Positions 5,914-35,978 of a stretch of 36,163 bases of DNA are shown piece by piece. Under the pieces are notes generated by a model. It searched no databases. It was not told where the DNA came from and saw only the letters and a program-made list of their open reading frames with translations. Both the position numbers and the translations under genes were made by a program. The stretch comes from an uncultured bacterium. GTDB lineage: Bacteria; Bacillota_I; Bacilli_A; RF39; UBA660. The stretch lies in the NCBI GenBank assembly GCA_949285875.1, contig CASDZZ010000010.1, positions 1-36,163 of the forward strand, in the 5' to 3' direction. How positions within the stretch are numbered: position 1 is the stretch's first letter; each line of letters opens with the position of its first letter.

Positions 5914-6897
5914 ATGAAAAAATTTAAAAATATTATAATAATTTTTTTAATTACTACATTTATTATGCCACAATGTTTATTCGCTTATTCCGAACATATA
6001 ATTGCAGGAGGCGAAAATATAGGATTAAAGGTTACTAATAATGGTGTTATTGTTGCAGGTTTTTATAAAGTTAATAATGGCTATCCAGGTAAAGAAGCAG
6101 GTTTCTATAAAGGAGATATTATAGTTAAGTCTAATAATAAAATGATAAATTCAATAGATGATTTTATTTCCTCTATCGAAGAATGTAATGAAAAAAAATT
6201 AAGTATAACTTTTAAAAGAAACGATAAAGAAAAAAATACTACTTTAAATTTAATTGAGGAAGATGGTAATTTAAAAACTGGATTATATGTAAAAGATTCT
6301 GTATCAGGGATTGGTACATTAACTTTCATTGATCCTAATACAAAACTTTATGGCGCTTTAGGACACGAAATTTTAGAATCTTCTACAGGTACCTTAATAA
6401 ATGTCAAAGAAGGACAAATTTATGATTCAAAAGTAACTTCTATAGAAAGAAGTACAAGAGGTGAACCTGGAGCTAAAAACGCAAGTGTAGATTCTAATAA
6501 AGTATATGGAAATATAAAAGAAAATACAATTTCAGGTATATTTGGTAATTATACGAGTGAAATCAATAAGAACAAATTATATAAAGTAGCTGATTATGAC
6601 GAAATAAAATTAGGAAATGCAAAAATCATAACGGTTTTAGAAGATAATTTAAAGAAAGAATATGACATAAATATAATCAAAGTAAATAATAATAAAAATG
6701 ATAATAAAAACATATTATTTGAAGTAACTGATAAAAAGCTAATAGAAATGACCGGAGGAATTATACAAGGAATGAGTGGTTCACCAATAATTCAAGGAGA
6801 TAAAATAATTGGTGCGGTAACAAACGTAGTAGTTAATGAACCTACTAAAGGATATGGTATTTTAATAACGTCCATGTTAGAAGAAGCAGAAGATTAG
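5914..6897 (+). CDS. spoIVB: SpoIVB-type S55 serine peptidase
   Basis: 327 residues with an N-terminal signal/anchor (about 1-24), a PDZ-like region (about 45-115: GYPGKEAGFYKGDIIV) and a C-terminal S55 peptidase domain. The family triad is visible: His151 in YGALGHE, Asp273 in EVTDKK and Ser288 in QGMSGSPI. The Asp-Ser spacing of 15 equals that of Bacillus SpoIVB. In sporulation the forespore secretes SpoIVB, which cleaves SpoIVFA to release pro-sigma-K processing. The ATG at 5914 lies 12 nt after AAGGAG, slightly long; the nearer upstream ATG (5908) is out of frame. Position downstream of xseAB recalls the Bacillus order. Whether this organism sporulates cannot be told from the window. Confidence 0.92.
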   Translation: MKKFKNIIIIFLITTFIMPQCLFAYSEHIIAGGENIGLKVTNNGVIVAGFYKVNNGYPGKEAGFYKGDIIVKSNNKMINSIDDFISSIEECNEKKLSITFKRNDKEKNTTLNLIEEDGNLKTGLYVKDSVSGIGTLTFIDPNTKLYGALGHEILESSTGTLINVKEGQIYDSKVTSIERSTRGEPGAKNASVDSNKVYGNIKENTISGIFGNYTSEINKNKLYKVADYDEIKLGNAKIITVLEDNLKKEYDINIIKVNNNKNDNKNILFEVTDKKLIEMTGGIIQGMSGSPIIQGDKIIGAVTNVVVNEPTKGYGILITSMLEEAED

Positions 6898-29484: not shown

Positions 29485-29508
29485 TAAAAAAGTCTACATA
29501 TGTAGACT
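29485..29508 (-). terminator. intra-operon terminator between lemA and DUF2207
   Basis: AGTCTACATATGTAGACT (29491-29508) is an 18-bp perfect palindrome followed on the minus strand by TTTTTT. It overlaps the lemA stop codon and lies just before the DUF2207 ribosome binding site, so it probably lowers DUF2207 expression relative to lemA. Confidence 0.75.
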
Positions 29509-30070
29509 AAAATTTAACTTGTGGTGTTTTTTTCTCATCTTCTGATGCTTCAAAAAACATTTCAGGTTTAAATTTAAACATATTTGCTACAATATTTGAA
29601 GGAAACATTTCAAGCTTATTTTTATAAGTTAGAACTGTATCATTATAAAATTGTCTAGCAAAACTTATTTTATCTTCTGTATCTTTTAAATTTGCCTGTA
29701 AATCTAAGAAGTTAGTATTAGCTTTCAAATCTGGATAACTTTCTGACAAAGCAAATAATCTTCCTAAAGCCTGAGTAAGTTCTCCAGAAGCTTTCATTTC
29801 ATCTTCTTTAGTATTAGCGCTAGCAACACTATTACGAGCTTTTATAACTTCATCTAAAGTAGACTTTTCATGCTTTGCATATCCTTTTACACTTTCTACT
29901 AAATTTGGTATCAAATCATTTCTTCTTTTTAACAAAACATCTATTTGAGACCATTGATCTTGTACTTTATTTCTTAAAGTAACTAAGCTATTGTATGTAG
30001 CTATTAGGTAAATTACAAGTAATACAACAATAGCAACAACAACTATAAGCAAAATTGTTAATCCGTCCAT
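29507..30070 (-). CDS. lemA: LemA family protein
   Basis: 187 residues, typical LemA length. One N-terminal membrane helix (about 5-25: ILLIVVVAIVVLLVIYLIA) is followed by a four-helix cytoplasmic or outer bundle with family motifs YNSLVTLRNKVQDQWSQIDV, LKRRNDLIPNLVESVKGYA, FALSESYPDLKAN and the C-terminal PSNIVANMFKFKPEMFF. ATG 30070 follows AGGAGG. Molecular role unknown; it forms a conserved pair with DUF2207. Confidence 0.95.
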   Translation of the reverse strand: MDGLTILLIVVVAIVVLLVIYLIATYNSLVTLRNKVQDQWSQIDVLLKRRNDLIPNLVESVKGYAKHEKSTLDEVIKARNSVASANTKEDEMKASGELTQALGRLFALSESYPDLKANTNFLDLQANLKDTEDKISFARQFYNDTVLTYKNKLEMFPSNIVANMFKFKPEMFFEASEDEKKTPQVKF

Positions 30071-30147
30071 AAATATCCTCCTTGCTATGAATATTATATA
30101 TTATTCTTTTTTTAAAAGTAAAGTATTTTATTTTAAAATGTTTATAT

Positions 30148-31200
30148 TTACACTTTCTTTTTAAAACTCAATTTACTATTAATATCATTTTTATAAGATT
30201 TATATATAGCCATTAAAATTATAGTTAAAGGAACCGCAATAATAATACCAGTAAGCCCCATTAATGCTCCTCCTGCAGATACTACAAAAATTGTAAGTAA
30301 AGGTGGTAACTGGTTTGTTTTACCATATATTTTAGGAGAAATAACATACCCATCAATATTAGGAAATACTAAAGTAATTATTAATGTTAGAATAAATACT
30401 TTAATAGAAACTACCGAAGCTATTATTAATGCAATTATATTTGTTATAATTCCCCCAAAATAAGGAATTACGGTAGTAATACATGCTAAAACACCAATTA
30501 ACAAGAAATTAGGGTGTCCTATTATTGCAAAAAGAAATGTATATTCAAAAAATTGAATAACCATAAATATTCCTAAACCTTTTAAATAAGAATATATTTC
30601 TCTATCTATATTATCTAATAACAAATATCTCTTATTATTAGTTCTAATCAAATATTTTTTTAGCCAGCTTCTTATTTTTTCCATATCTGATAAAAAATAA
30701 ATAGTAACTATGAAGATTATAACCATATTAGAAAGATATCCAATAGATGAATTTAATATCACAAAAATTGATCCTGTTGAAATACTTTCTTCTATAATTT
30801 GAAAAATTTTAGTGGATAGAGTTTCTATTATTTTATTAAAAGATGTCATGTTTAAATTATACTTTATTGCTAAATCACTTGAAACTTTTGCTAAATTTGA
30901 AAGTAAATTTATAGCCTGAGTAACAAAAACTGGAACAACAAAATATATTGTAAGTCCTACTATTAAAATAATTACAGCTATTATTATAAAAATTGATAAA
31001 AATTTTGGAATTTTCTTACTAACCAAGAATTTAAGAAAGGGGTATAAAACATATGCTAAGCAAAAAGATATTAAAAAAGGAAGTAAAATACTAAAAATCC
31101 TTTTAAATGCACCTAGCCAAATACCCTTTAATAAAAATAATAAATATATAATACCTAAAAGAAGTAAGATATTTAAATACTTATAATTAACATTTTTCAA
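30148..31200 (-). CDS. AI-2E transporter family (PerM-like) permease
   Basis: 350 residues from a TTG at 31200; the ribosome binding site AAGGAG lies inside the end of dtd. It has six to eight membrane helices with a large loop (about 90-150), the family layout. The characteristic region with helix IFIVTIYFLSDMEKIRSWLK and the later VIPYFGGIITNIIALI and PLLTIFVVSAGGALMGLTG motifs are present. Members have been linked to autoinducer-2 export or sodium/proton exchange, and the substrate is usually unknown. It is translationally coupled to dtd, making a relA-dtd-permease operon. Confidence 0.88.
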   Translation of the reverse strand: MKNVNYKYLNILLLLGIIYLLFLLKGIWLGAFKRIFSILLPFLISFCLAYVLYPFLKFLVSKKIPKFLSIFIIIAVIILIVGLTIYFVVPVFVTQAINLLSNLAKVSSDLAIKYNLNMTSFNKIIETLSTKIFQIIEESISTGSIFVILNSSIGYLSNMVIIFIVTIYFLSDMEKIRSWLKKYLIRTNNKRYLLLDNIDREIYSYLKGLGIFMVIQFFEYTFLFAIIGHPNFLLIGVLACITTVIPYFGGIITNIIALIIASVVSIKVFILTLIITLVFPNIDGYVISPKIYGKTNQLPPLLTIFVVSAGGALMGLTGIIIAVPLTIILMAIYKSYKNDINSKLSFKKKV

Positions 31201-31203
31201 AAA

Positions 31204-31647
31204 CTAACACTCCTTACTATCAATAATTATCGTAACAGGACCATCATTAATCAAATTAACTTTCATATCAGCTCCAAAAATACCTTTTTCTACCGTTATA
31301 CCGCTAGATTTTAATTCATCATTAAAAAGTTCATATAGGTTTTTAGCTTCTTTAAAATTCATTGCAGTAGTAAAGGAAGGTCTATTTCCGTTTAATAAAG
31401 CATATAGCGTAAACTGAGAAATAGATAAAACACCTCCCTTTGCATCAAATATATTTAAGTTCATTTTTCCTTCAATATCACTAAATATTCTAAGCCCTAA
31501 GATTTTTTTTGCCACTTTTTTTACGTCTTCTTTGGTATCTTCTTTATTAAAAGCTACTAATAATACATACCCTTTATCTATATGACCAATAGTTCTTTCG
31601 TCAACTGTAACACTAGCTTCAAGACTTCTTTGGACAACTACTTTCAT
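31204..31647 (-). CDS. dtd: D-aminoacyl-tRNA deacylase
   Basis: 147 residues, full length. It removes D-amino acids (and glycine from tRNA-Ala) mistakenly attached to tRNAs. Signature motifs are intact: MKVVVQRSLEASVTV at the start, SQFTLYA (about 77-83) and the cross-subunit NDGPVT near the C-terminus that forms the homodimer active site. Its ATG overlaps the relA stop by one base (TAATG), indicating coupled translation, and it is followed within a few bases by the permease start. Confidence 0.97.
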   Translation of the reverse strand: MKVVVQRSLEASVTVDERTIGHIDKGYVLLVAFNKEDTKEDVKKVAKKILGLRIFSDIEGKMNLNIFDAKGGVLSISQFTLYALLNGNRPSFTTAMNFKEAKNLYELFNDELKSSGITVEKGIFGADMKVNLINDGPVTIIIDSKEC

Positions 31648-33803
31648 TAGTTATAACCTCGTTCTACATCATTAACGTTAGTAATTTGTTTAAGAGCTAT
31701 AATATATTTTTCTAATTTTTCTTTATCTTCTACCAAAACATCAATATCATACATATTATAATCTGAATTTGAAATCGTATTAACGCTTTTAACGCTAATT
31801 CCAAGAGAAGTAGTTTTTGTAATTATTTCTAAAAGTAAATTATCAACTTTTTCTGCATAAATAAGAACGTTAGCTACATACTTCTTTTTAGAAGAAGGAT
31901 TCCATGATGCCTCAATTATTCTATCAGTTAAATCGCATATGTTGTGACAATTTTTACGATGAATGGTAATCCCATTTCCCTTAGAAATATAACCTACAAT
32001 CTGATCTCCTTTAACTGGTTTACAGCAGCCTCCGTAAGAAACTTTTAAATCATCTAAACCATCTATTACAATATCTCCCGCAGTATCTAGTACGCAAGAA
32101 TTATATTTAAGAGCTTTTTCTATTACTCTTTTTTCTTCATCTTTTTCTCCTAGGATGCTTTTAATAACAGATGTAGGATTAAGCTTTCCTATTCCTAATT
32201 CATAATATAAATCATTTTCATTATTTAGACCTAAATTTTCTAAAGCTATAGCAAGTTTTTTGCTATCTAATATATCATTTGCAGATAATTTTTTCTTTCT
32301 TAGTGTTTTTTGAAGTAGCTCTTTACCATCATTAATTGATTTTGTTTTATCTATTTTACTAAAAAATGCTTTGATTTTATTTTTTGCACTAGTTGTAAAA
32401 GCTATATTTATCCATTCTTTTGAGGGACCACTACTTTTATTTGTATTTATTTTTACTATATCCCCATCTTTTAATTTATAATCCAAAGGTACGATATTAT
32501 TGTTTACTATTGCACCTACCATTTGATGCCCTACCGAAGTATGCACACGGTAAGCAAAATCTACAGGAGTAGAACCAAGAGGCAATTCAAAAACATCTCC
32601 CTTAGGTGTATAAACATAAATATTTGAAGAATTAAAGATTTCGTTTTTAACCGTATTTACAAAATCTTCTCCTTCTACTTGTTGTTCGTTTAGTTCTATT
32701 ATTGACCTAAAAGATTTAAGTTTTTGCTCCATCATGTTTGTTTTATTTACGCCATGTTCTTTATAAGACCAGTGTGATGCAAATCCATATTCCGCAACTT
32801 TATCCATCTCATAAGTTCTAATTTGTATTTCAAATAGTTTACCATCTACTCCAAAAACTGTTGTATGTAAAGACTGATATCCATTAGATTTTGGACGTGC
32901 TATATAATCTTTAAATCGTTTTGGAACTGGCTTATATTTTGCGTGAATTAGACCTAAAGCTAAATAACATTCAGCTTCCGTATTAACTAGATATCTAAGT
33001 GCCAAAATATCATAAATTTCATTAAAAGATTTTCCTTTATTTAATTTGTTATAGATACTATAAACACTTTTTGATCTACCTTTCATCTCATGAGGAATAT
33101 TATTTTCAGAAAGAATTTTTGATACGCTTTTAAGCATTTCTTCAACAGACTTATCAAGTTCTTGCCTACTTTCAGATAAACGTTCTAATATGTCATTATA
33201 AACATCTGGTTTATAATATTTTAAGCAAAGATCTTCTAGTTCGCTTTTTATATGATTGATTCCTAAACGATGTGCTATAGGAACTAATATCTCTAAAGTT
33301 TCTTTAGCTTTTTCTTTTCTTTTTCTTTCGGGAATAGCCCATAAAGTTCTCATGTTATGAAGTCTATCTGCAATTTTAAGAATTATTATTCTTACGTCCC
33401 CTGATAAACCAACAAGTATTTTTTTATGATAAGATGCAATAGTGTCGTTATCTGCTGATAAACTTAGTTTATTAATTTTTGAAATTCCTTCAACTAAATT
33501 TTTTATTTCAACACCAAATTCTTCTTCTACTTCTTCTATTGTTACTTGGGAAAAATTAATAACATCATGTAATAAAGCAGTTGCAAGAGTTTGGGCATCA
33601 GCATAAATTTCTGTTAATATTAAAGCTACATTAAGAGGATGAAGCATAAATTCATCCCCAGAAAGTCTTTGTTGACCCATATGTGCTTTAGATGCAAAAT
33701 CATATGCTCTTTTAATTAAATTTAAATCATCTTCATTTTTTATGTATGTTTTTGCTTTTTCTAATAAATCATCTAAGTTATAAGCTTGTTCTTTATGCTT
33801 CAT
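31647..33803 (-). CDS. relA: Rel/SpoT-family (p)ppGpp synthetase, hydrolase dyad missing
   Basis: 718 residues with the full RSH architecture. The N-terminal HD domain has His41, His79-Asp80 and Asp146 (IADRLHN). The synthetase domain has IYDILALR, the Rel-type RFKD motif in PKRFKDYIARPK, and FEIQIRT. A TGS domain (YTPKGDVFELPLGSTP), a zinc-finger-like region (SYGGCCKPVKGD) and a C-terminal ACT domain follow. In the hydrolase the catalytic HDxxED motif reads HDVINF: the Glu-Asp dyad is replaced by Asn83-Phe84. Synthetase residues look intact, so (p)ppGpp synthesis is expected while hydrolysis is doubtful. It is upstream of and coupled to dtd. Confidence 0.96.
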   Translation of the reverse strand: MKHKEQAYNLDDLLEKAKTYIKNEDDLNLIKRAYDFASKAHMGQQRLSGDEFMLHPLNVALILTEIYADAQTLATALLHDVINFSQVTIEEVEEEFGVEIKNLVEGISKINKLSLSADNDTIASYHKKILVGLSGDVRIIILKIADRLHNMRTLWAIPERKRKEKAKETLEILVPIAHRLGINHIKSELEDLCLKYYKPDVYNDILERLSESRQELDKSVEEMLKSVSKILSENNIPHEMKGRSKSVYSIYNKLNKGKSFNEIYDILALRYLVNTEAECYLALGLIHAKYKPVPKRFKDYIARPKSNGYQSLHTTVFGVDGKLFEIQIRTYEMDKVAEYGFASHWSYKEHGVNKTNMMEQKLKSFRSIIELNEQQVEGEDFVNTVKNEIFNSSNIYVYTPKGDVFELPLGSTPVDFAYRVHTSVGHQMVGAIVNNNIVPLDYKLKDGDIVKINTNKSSGPSKEWINIAFTTSAKNKIKAFFSKIDKTKSINDGKELLQKTLRKKKLSANDILDSKKLAIALENLGLNNENDLYYELGIGKLNPTSVIKSILGEKDEEKRVIEKALKYNSCVLDTAGDIVIDGLDDLKVSYGGCCKPVKGDQIVGYISKGNGITIHRKNCHNICDLTDRIIEASWNPSSKKKYVANVLIYAEKVDNLLLEIITKTTSLGISVKSVNTISNSDYNMYDIDVLVEDKEKLEKYIIALKQITNVNDVERGYN

Positions 33804-33821: not shown

Positions 33822-35978
33822 TTAATTTTTTTTAAATTTCTTTTTTTCTATTAAAAACCACATTTGTCCAGCTAGTAGTATTGATGAATAAGCACCAGCT
33901 ATTAATCCAAATATTAAGGCAATATTAAATGGAAGAATACCTTCAGAACCTAAGATTATTAAGCAAATAACGGGTATCATAGTCGTTAGTGTAGTATAAA
34001 TAGATCTAGTAAAAGTTTCAGTTATACTTTTATTTACTATATTTTTTAATTTATCTTCATCCATTTTTCCCTTGTTTAAATTTAAAATTTCTCTTATTCT
34101 ATCAAATACAACGATAGTATTATTTATTGAATAACCTACTATGGTAAGAAGTGCTGCTATAAAAATAACATTTACTTCTATTTTAAATACAGAAAATAAT
34201 ATAATTACAAACAAAACATCATGCAATAAAGCTAGTATAGATGATACTGCATAACTAAATTTAAATCTAAATGAAATATATACAATTATAGCAATAGCAG
34301 CTATTAAAACTGAATATATAGCATTTTTTATTAAATCTTGTTTAACAATATCAGTAACAACATTAACCTCTGTTTTTGCGTTATATTTTTCTTCAAAATA
34401 ATTATTTACCTTATTAATATCTTTTTCTTTTAATTCATCATTTAACTTAACATATATTTCTTTAGAGCTTTGTTTATCTATTTGGTTTACTTTATAACCT
34501 AATTTTTTAAAGTCTTCTTTTACAACATTTTCTTTCAAGTTATCAGCACTTAAAGTAACATCTGAACCAGCCCTAAAATCAATTCCAAGATTTAAGCCAC
34601 TAACCGAAAGAAAGATTATACCAATAATTAAATAAGCTATCGTAAATATAAAACATTTCGTTGTTAATTTTATGGCATTAATTTCTTTTAAGAATTTTCT
34701 TTTTTTATTATATCTTATGAATTTATTAGGTTTTTCATCAAAAACTTTTGTTTTTACAAAAGTTTTTAAAATAAGTCTATTTAAGAAAACCATTACAAAC
34801 ATAGTAGCAAAAATAGTTATCATAAGCATTGTGGCAAAGCCCTTAACAGAGCTTTCACCAAAAATAAATAGTACAATAGCAACTATTAAGGTAGTAACGT
34901 TGGCATCAAAAATTGAGTTCCAAGATTCACTATTACCACTTTCGTAAGCTGTTTTCATATTTTTACCATTTTGCAACTCTTCTTTTATACGTTCATTTGT
35001 TACAACACAAGAATCCACTGCCATTCCTATACCTAAAACCAAAGCAGCGATACCAGGTAGCGTTAATACCCCACCTATTAACCAAAAAATTCCCATGACT
35101 AAAAGCATGTAAAATAACAAGTTAAGTCCAGAAATGAAACCACTAAATTTATACAAAATAGTCATAAAAATAATTACTAAAACCATCCCTATTATTCCAG
35201 ATGCAAAAGTTTTATAAAGTACATCTTCTCCATACGAAGCATTTACATTCTGGGACGAAATTTCATTTAATTTTGTAGAAATAGAACCAGCATTAATACT
35301 AGTTGCTAAACTTTCTGCCTCTTCTTTTTCAAAATTACCTTTAATTATTACATCACTTGAAAAACCTTGGTCAACACTGGCAGCTGATAAACATACGCTA
35401 TTTTCCTCACCACATGTATCTTTATCTTTTTCATAAGAGTTTACCCCGTTTTCAAAGTTATACCAAATTACCATAATATTTTCGCCATCAGCTTTTTCGC
35501 TAACCTTAGTTGTTGCTTCTAAGAATTTTTCTTTATCTGCAACTTGTAATGATATTGCTGGTTTCCCAGTTTCATCATAACCTAACTTAGCTCCTTTTAT
35601 TACGGTTGCATCCATTAGCAGATTATCATCTGTATCTCTAAACGAAATATTAGCTACGTTAGAAAGCGTTTTTCTAGCACTTTCTATATCTGTTACACCA
35701 GCTAGCTTAACTCTTATTCTATCATTTCCTTCAATTGTGATTTCAGGTTCTGAAACCCCAAGAGAATCAACATTTCTTCTTAGTACGTCATAAGTACTAT
35801 TTAAATCATTACTCGTAAGTTTTTTTCCATCACTTCGTTTTACTTGATATAAAACTTCGAAACCTCCTTTTAAATCAAGTCCAAATTTCATATCTTTAAA
35901 TAGCGGTATATAAATTAAACTAAATAAAAATATTACCACAAAGAATATTAAAATTCTTTTAACAAATTTTTTTCTCAT
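33822..35978 (-). CDS. secDF: SecDF protein-export fusion
   Basis: 718 residues, SecD (about 1-425) fused to SecF (about 426-718), as in Bacillus. SecDF uses the proton or sodium gradient to help pull secreted proteins out of SecYEG. The D1 motif GLDLKGGFEVL (33-43) and the SecF GIDFRAGSDV block are present, as is the SecD helix-4 Asp322 in GIGMAVDSCVV. In the SecF half the usual YSxND motif reads YSINNT: Asn620 replaces the ion-relay Asp, although the partner Arg658 (TFTRS) remains. The P1 head between helices 1 and 2 is relatively short. ATG 35978 follows AAGGAAGG. Confidence 0.96.
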   Translation of the reverse strand: MRKKFVKRILIFFVVIFLFSLIYIPLFKDMKFGLDLKGGFEVLYQVKRSDGKKLTSNDLNSTYDVLRRNVDSLGVSEPEITIEGNDRIRVKLAGVTDIESARKTLSNVANISFRDTDDNLLMDATVIKGAKLGYDETGKPAISLQVADKEKFLEATTKVSEKADGENIMVIWYNFENGVNSYEKDKDTCGEENSVCLSAASVDQGFSSDVIIKGNFEKEEAESLATSINAGSISTKLNEISSQNVNASYGEDVLYKTFASGIIGMVLVIIFMTILYKFSGFISGLNLLFYMLLVMGIFWLIGGVLTLPGIAALVLGIGMAVDSCVVTNERIKEELQNGKNMKTAYESGNSESWNSIFDANVTTLIVAIVLFIFGESSVKGFATMLMITIFATMFVMVFLNRLILKTFVKTKVFDEKPNKFIRYNKKRKFLKEINAIKLTTKCFIFTIAYLIIGIIFLSVSGLNLGIDFRAGSDVTLSADNLKENVVKEDFKKLGYKVNQIDKQSSKEIYVKLNDELKEKDINKVNNYFEEKYNAKTEVNVVTDIVKQDLIKNAIYSVLIAAIAIIVYISFRFKFSYAVSSILALLHDVLFVIILFSVFKIEVNVIFIAALLTIVGYSINNTIVVFDRIREILNLNKGKMDEDKLKNIVNKSITETFTRSIYTTLTTMIPVICLIILGSEGILPFNIALIFGLIAGAYSSILLAGQMWFLIEKKKFKKN

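Follow-up and report, generated by a model that had tools for sequence, protein, structure and literature searches.

In bacteria, protein export is usually coupled to an ion gradient through SecDF. The SecDF encoded in the sequence analysed here (a stretch of 36,163 nucleotides from an uncultured gut bacterium, referred to below as the window) carries a neutral asparagine in transmembrane helix 10 (TM10), at a site where homologues carry an aspartate. This raises the question of whether the protein is still an ion-driven motor and, if so, on which of its membrane carboxylates the motor depends. The gene and the codons concerned are the following.

33822..35978, minus strand: secDF, fused SecD and SecF, 718 amino acids (open reading frame, Pfam and TIGR profiles)
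35013..35015, minus strand: codon 322, GAT, Asp of TM4 (Thermus D340, E. coli SecD D519)
34131..34133, minus strand: codon 616, Tyr of TM10, presumably the TM10 Tyr of the relay in PMC8277102
34119..34121, minus strand: codon 620, AAT, Asn, at the TM10 (SecF) Asp site (Thermus D637)
34005..34007, minus strand: codon 658, AGA, Arg of TM11 (Thermus R671)

The secDF reading frame is single and uninterrupted; it starts with ATG at minus-strand position 35978 and extends to 33822. Its product passes both family profiles, with 324.8 bits on the SecD profile TIGR01129 (cut-off 244.4) and 329.6 bits on the SecF profile TIGR00966 (cut-off 160), and contains the Pfam domains SecD_SecF_C (222 bits), SecD_1st, SecDF_P1_head and Sec_GG, the accessions matched being PF02355, PF21760, PF22599 and PF07549. 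The AlphaFold model (pLDDT 79, pTM 0.68) has a predicted RND-type membrane domain of 12 helices together with P1 (head and base) and P4 domains, and its top matches in the PDB are SecDF entries throughout (Z 36–45), with other RND proteins at Z of 34 or less. SecDF of Thermus thermophilus (3aqp, 5yhf) is likewise one chain of the same fold, aligned to the model by VIA-align over about 660 residues with Z 43–45, rmsd 6.6–8.9 and 30% identity. The SecDF of Deinococcus radiodurans (5xan, 5xap, 5xam) shares the architecture (Foldseek E 1e-36, 27% identity), whereas in E. coli (5mg3) SecD and SecF are two separate proteins. Downstream of secDF, at window positions 29507..33803 on the minus strand, lie genes for a RelA/SpoT homologue, a D-Tyr-tRNA deacylase, an AI-2E family transporter and LemA.

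Residue 620 lies in the context YSINNTIVVFDRIRE, with the local motif Y616-S-I-N-N620-T-I. In phmmer alignments with solved chains it stands opposite the Asp of YSIND or YSLND in Thermus (3aqp, Asp637), Deinococcus (5xan, YSLND) and E. coli SecF (5mg3_F), so that all three differ from the window protein at this site. In the same alignments the Thermus counterparts of D322 and R658 are D340 and R671, and the TM4 Asp and TM11 Arg are also shared with E. coli. Translation and alignment thus bear out the preliminary description of this DNA, which had read codon 620 as AAT, giving Asn where homologues have Asp, and had listed Arg658 and SecD Asp322 as retained. The Thermus numbers D637, D340 and R671 were counted from the PDB sequences; for the TM10 and TM11 sites of E. 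coli SecF we take the numbers to be D213 (Asp) and R247 (Arg). Judged by its profiles, its fold and the TM4 Asp, TM11 Arg and TM10 Tyr, the protein is a member of the SecDF protein translocase family, and N620 at the TM10 Asp site places its sequence outside the two-carboxylate (textbook) subtype.

To survey how Asn is distributed among relatives, 386 genomes of the window's family (f1) were searched with a degenerate DNA pattern covering the TM10 motif, in one run for Asn alone and in another for Asn or Asp. Translation verified the Asn version in 38 genomes from 12 genera, and a thirty-ninth Asn genome (G004) has the motif YAINN, which the DNA pattern missed. Most other SecDF-bearing genera have Asp at the site (about 50 of these genera verified by translation), and the genera g39, g49 and g159 each contain both residues. 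In a phylum-wide sample, Asn is found in 14 of 16 aligned SecDFs of a second family (f19), in most of them as GYSINNS, and also in a TGA-recoding mollicute (L154), while searching further genomes with a profile brought in versions with Ser (L174) and Ala (L178), two with Asp-Asp at positions 619–620 (L175, L176) and one divergent protein (L179). Asp-Asp takes the place of Asn-Asp at 619–620 in a few f19 members, namely L169, L175 and L176. The earlier suggestion that the change belongs to "this lineage" is therefore too narrow, as neutral residues appear at this site repeatedly within the phylum. Pattern matches in L058, L071, L086, L096, L113, L114 and L134, and likewise in L161, L162, L164, L171 and L172, were not SecDF and were removed. 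The literature searched, which is weak evidence here as the principal SecDF papers lay outside it, contains no report of a natural Asn at the SecDF TM10 site. About half of the 386 family genomes gave no match to the TM10 pattern, and a profile search detected no SecDF in about half of 117 relatives. The f1 genomes with no recognisable SecDF are mostly more than 90% complete, indicating repeated loss or genus-level absence.

The residues around the site show very different degrees of conservation. In an alignment of 141 SecDFs, position 620 is D in 71, N in 67, and S, A and H in one each, the H coming from a divergent protein (L179) whose alignment there is uncertain. Seventy of the 141 proteins consequently have no Asp at the TM10 site and do not belong to the two-carboxylate subtype. 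D322 is retained in 140 of the 141, Y616 in 138 and R658 in 137. The four exceptions at R658 are L179 and three f19 proteins (L139, L140 and L141; two with Glu and one with Met), and this replacement of the TM11 Arg by Glu or Met is confined to a clade whose TM10 site is already Asn, with a Lys one residue before the TM11 site. L179 itself (genome G549, family f24) is a very divergent SecDF-like protein, apparently from a genome that reads TGA as Trp; it has kept neither the Asp of TM4 nor the Arg of TM11, nor the TM10 site.

A tree of these proteins built without column 620 places 12 changes between Asp and a neutral residue, at least 11 of them forced by supported branches, and a first, smaller tree gave 10 changes with at least 8 forced; the exact numbers are soft because both are quick-search LG+G4 trees. 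The mixed genera g39, g49 and g159 were defined independently of secDF. The state at 620 is strongly clustered on the tree (none of 500 shuffles was as low), which indicates that switching is slow and hence that the residue is not freely exchangeable. The tree gives no direction for the switch; from the residues in Thermus, Deinococcus and E. coli we infer that Asp is the older state.

These results lead us to consider it probable that the window encodes an intact, selected SecDF motor with a neutral Asn at TM10, built on a one-carboxylate core to which the TM10 Asp of other SecDFs is an accessory. The core would consist of the TM4 Asp (D322) as the sole proton-carrying carboxylate, facing the TM11 Arg (R658) and aided by the TM10 Tyr. 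The TM10 Asp would be an accessory, partnering R658 through its charge and a hydrogen bond, and Asn could take its place by hydrogen bonding with the loss of one negative charge, Ser and in one case Ala being further possibilities. Over evolutionary time the TM10 site would alternate between two-carboxylate and one-carboxylate versions while D322 stays in place. We infer from the sequence comparisons that the Asn motor would still be driven by an ion gradient, its side chains sharing the proton in the proposed way.

The accessory role is assigned to the TM10 Asp because the SecDF relay, as given in a review, comprises the Asp of TM4, the Tyr of TM10 and the Arg of TM11 (PMC8277102). Mutation of the TM4 site in E. 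coli (SecD D519N) leaves no proton movement and no complementation (PMC7695460). As the relay residues are kept and the TM10 Asp varies, the natural record agrees with both reports. That every close relative shares Asn, and that the swap has arisen repeatedly in evolution, suggests that the second membrane charge, the TM10 Asp, is dispensable, whereas its partner, the TM4 Asp, is not. Some evidence counts against this interpretation. In AcrB, a change of either of two aspartates to Asn abolishes transport, and calculations on D407N and D408N leave one protonatable site (PMC4359379), so that an Asp-to-Asn exchange can destroy the function of an RND relay. As in the window protein, one of two relay aspartates is gone, but D407N and D408N are inactive laboratory mutants and both aspartates lie on TM4, whereas the state considered here is natural, conserved and on TM10. 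The strong clustering of the state at 620 on the tree, with its slow switching, also counts against it. In addition, the SecDF fold can evidently persist without a relay, because the divergent L179 keeps none of the three polar sites.

The preliminary description had concluded from Asn620 that ion coupling is altered or weakened, or that a different ion relay operates in its place, and had proposed a search for covariation of Asn with other membrane residues in the SecDFs of relatives. None was found to follow the residue across independent switches: in 3691 column-residue tests over 8 independent pairs no column tracked the Asp/Asn switch closely, and positions 326 (on TM4), 577 and 456, which came closest, did so in about 4 of the 8 pairs, which is not significant given the number of tests. 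The membrane helices of the Asn proteins contain no new acidic residue. Site 624, polar (T, S or C) in many Asp versions and V or I in most Asn versions, looked suggestive but was not among the top columns. Faster evolution of the Asn lineages was also considered and rejected, since their root-to-tip distance is equal to that of the Asp lineages (2.38 for N and 2.35 for D). Every Asn genus of the window's family retains SecDF in all members sampled. With no covarying residue, equal rates and SecDF retained in the Asn genera, neither a replacement relay nor decay is indicated. What stands of the earlier view is a real, lineage-wide Asn beside a TM4 Asp and a TM11 Arg that are retained; weakened coupling or another relay is so far unsupported by these comparisons, in which the gene also appears to be under purifying selection.

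Nevertheless, it is conceivable, though in our judgement rather unlikely, that coupling is weakened or lost and that the Asn protein works on emerging chains as a holdase or ratchet that is passive or weakly driven, a state that fermenting cells with reduced genomes and a low proton gradient would tolerate. The energetics of the family lend this some plausibility. A rotary ATP synthase c subunit was found in 0 of 32 f1 genomes and an a subunit in 0 of 23, membrane pyrophosphatase gave no match above the cut-off, and Rnf was present in 1 of 26; P-type ATPases occur in 7 of 10 genomes of the family. The SecDF motor moreover appears dispensable in the family, because about half of its genomes have no recognisable SecDF. 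However, a link between residue 620 and the ATP synthase was examined and discarded: the enzyme is missing from Asp and Asn members of f1 alike and present in Asn genomes of f19 (a subunit in 12 of 13 f19 genomes, and in 4 of 4 of family f15), so the residue does not track it. The conservation of D322, Y616 and R658 in the Asn lineages also speaks against weakened coupling, as a passive protein would not need these residues, and so does the retention of SecDF throughout the Asn genera.

The same absence of SecDF from about half of the family genomes could point to neutral drift or to decay of an outgoing gene, a reading that has little support and is largely contradicted by the pattern of selection, and which we regard as improbable. 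Asn occupies site 620 in all 18 genomes sampled in the genus, namely the window genome and 17 others, which come from several different metagenome projects and whose SecDFs are 71–79% identical to that of the window. The preliminary description had considered that close relatives might all carry Asp; all 17 congeners carry Asn. The codon is AAT in 11 of the 18 species and AAC in 7, and the genus tree contains at least 3 synonymous AAT/AAC changes and no replacement. Over secDF within the genus pN/pS is about 0.24, a value that is indicative only because synonymous sites are near saturation, and TM10 (residues 604–633) is conserved more strongly than secDF overall, with pN of 0.075 compared with 0.153. 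Judged by this substitution pattern, secDF is under purifying selection. An open frame, a conserved TM10, an Asn fixed in 18 species and an evolutionary rate in the Asn lineages that is no faster are not what a decaying gene would be expected to present.

To our knowledge there is no sequence marker for a sodium-driven SecDF. The notion that Asn marks another coupling ion, such as sodium, can appeal to the sodium-driven second SecDF proposed in marine bacteria (cited in PMC6028853). It has little support and seems very improbable, as no membrane ligand covaries with the switch in the 8 pairs, Asn is found in lineages with and without ATP synthase, and the Ala of one relative (L178) is unlike an ion ligand. 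A sequencing or assembly error is refuted, for although AAT is one base away from GAT and the window is a contig from a fragmented draft genome (46 contigs), Asn620 is repeated in congeners from separate studies by way of two synonymous codons.

The Asn620 of this gut bacterium is accordingly a real and recurrent natural variant of a known protein. The exchange of Asp for a neutral residue is frequent at TM10 and almost never seen at TM4, which ranks the two residues independently and offers a natural experiment for telling which carboxylate is the proton carrier. The matched natural Asp/Asn pairs within g39, g49 and g159 make the roles of the two aspartates testable. More tentatively, we speculate that there may be a one-carboxylate class of SecDF in which TM10 has repeatedly become neutral, working with a proton relay that is simpler, or with another stoichiometry, than in the model proteins, and that in a subgroup the loss of the TM10 Asp could have enabled the loss of the TM11 Arg.

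Elsewhere in the window, at positions 5914..6897 on the plus strand, a gene encodes a SpoIVB-type S55 peptidase with a PDZ domain, a sporulation-type signalling protease retained in a reduced genome of 1.1 Mb.
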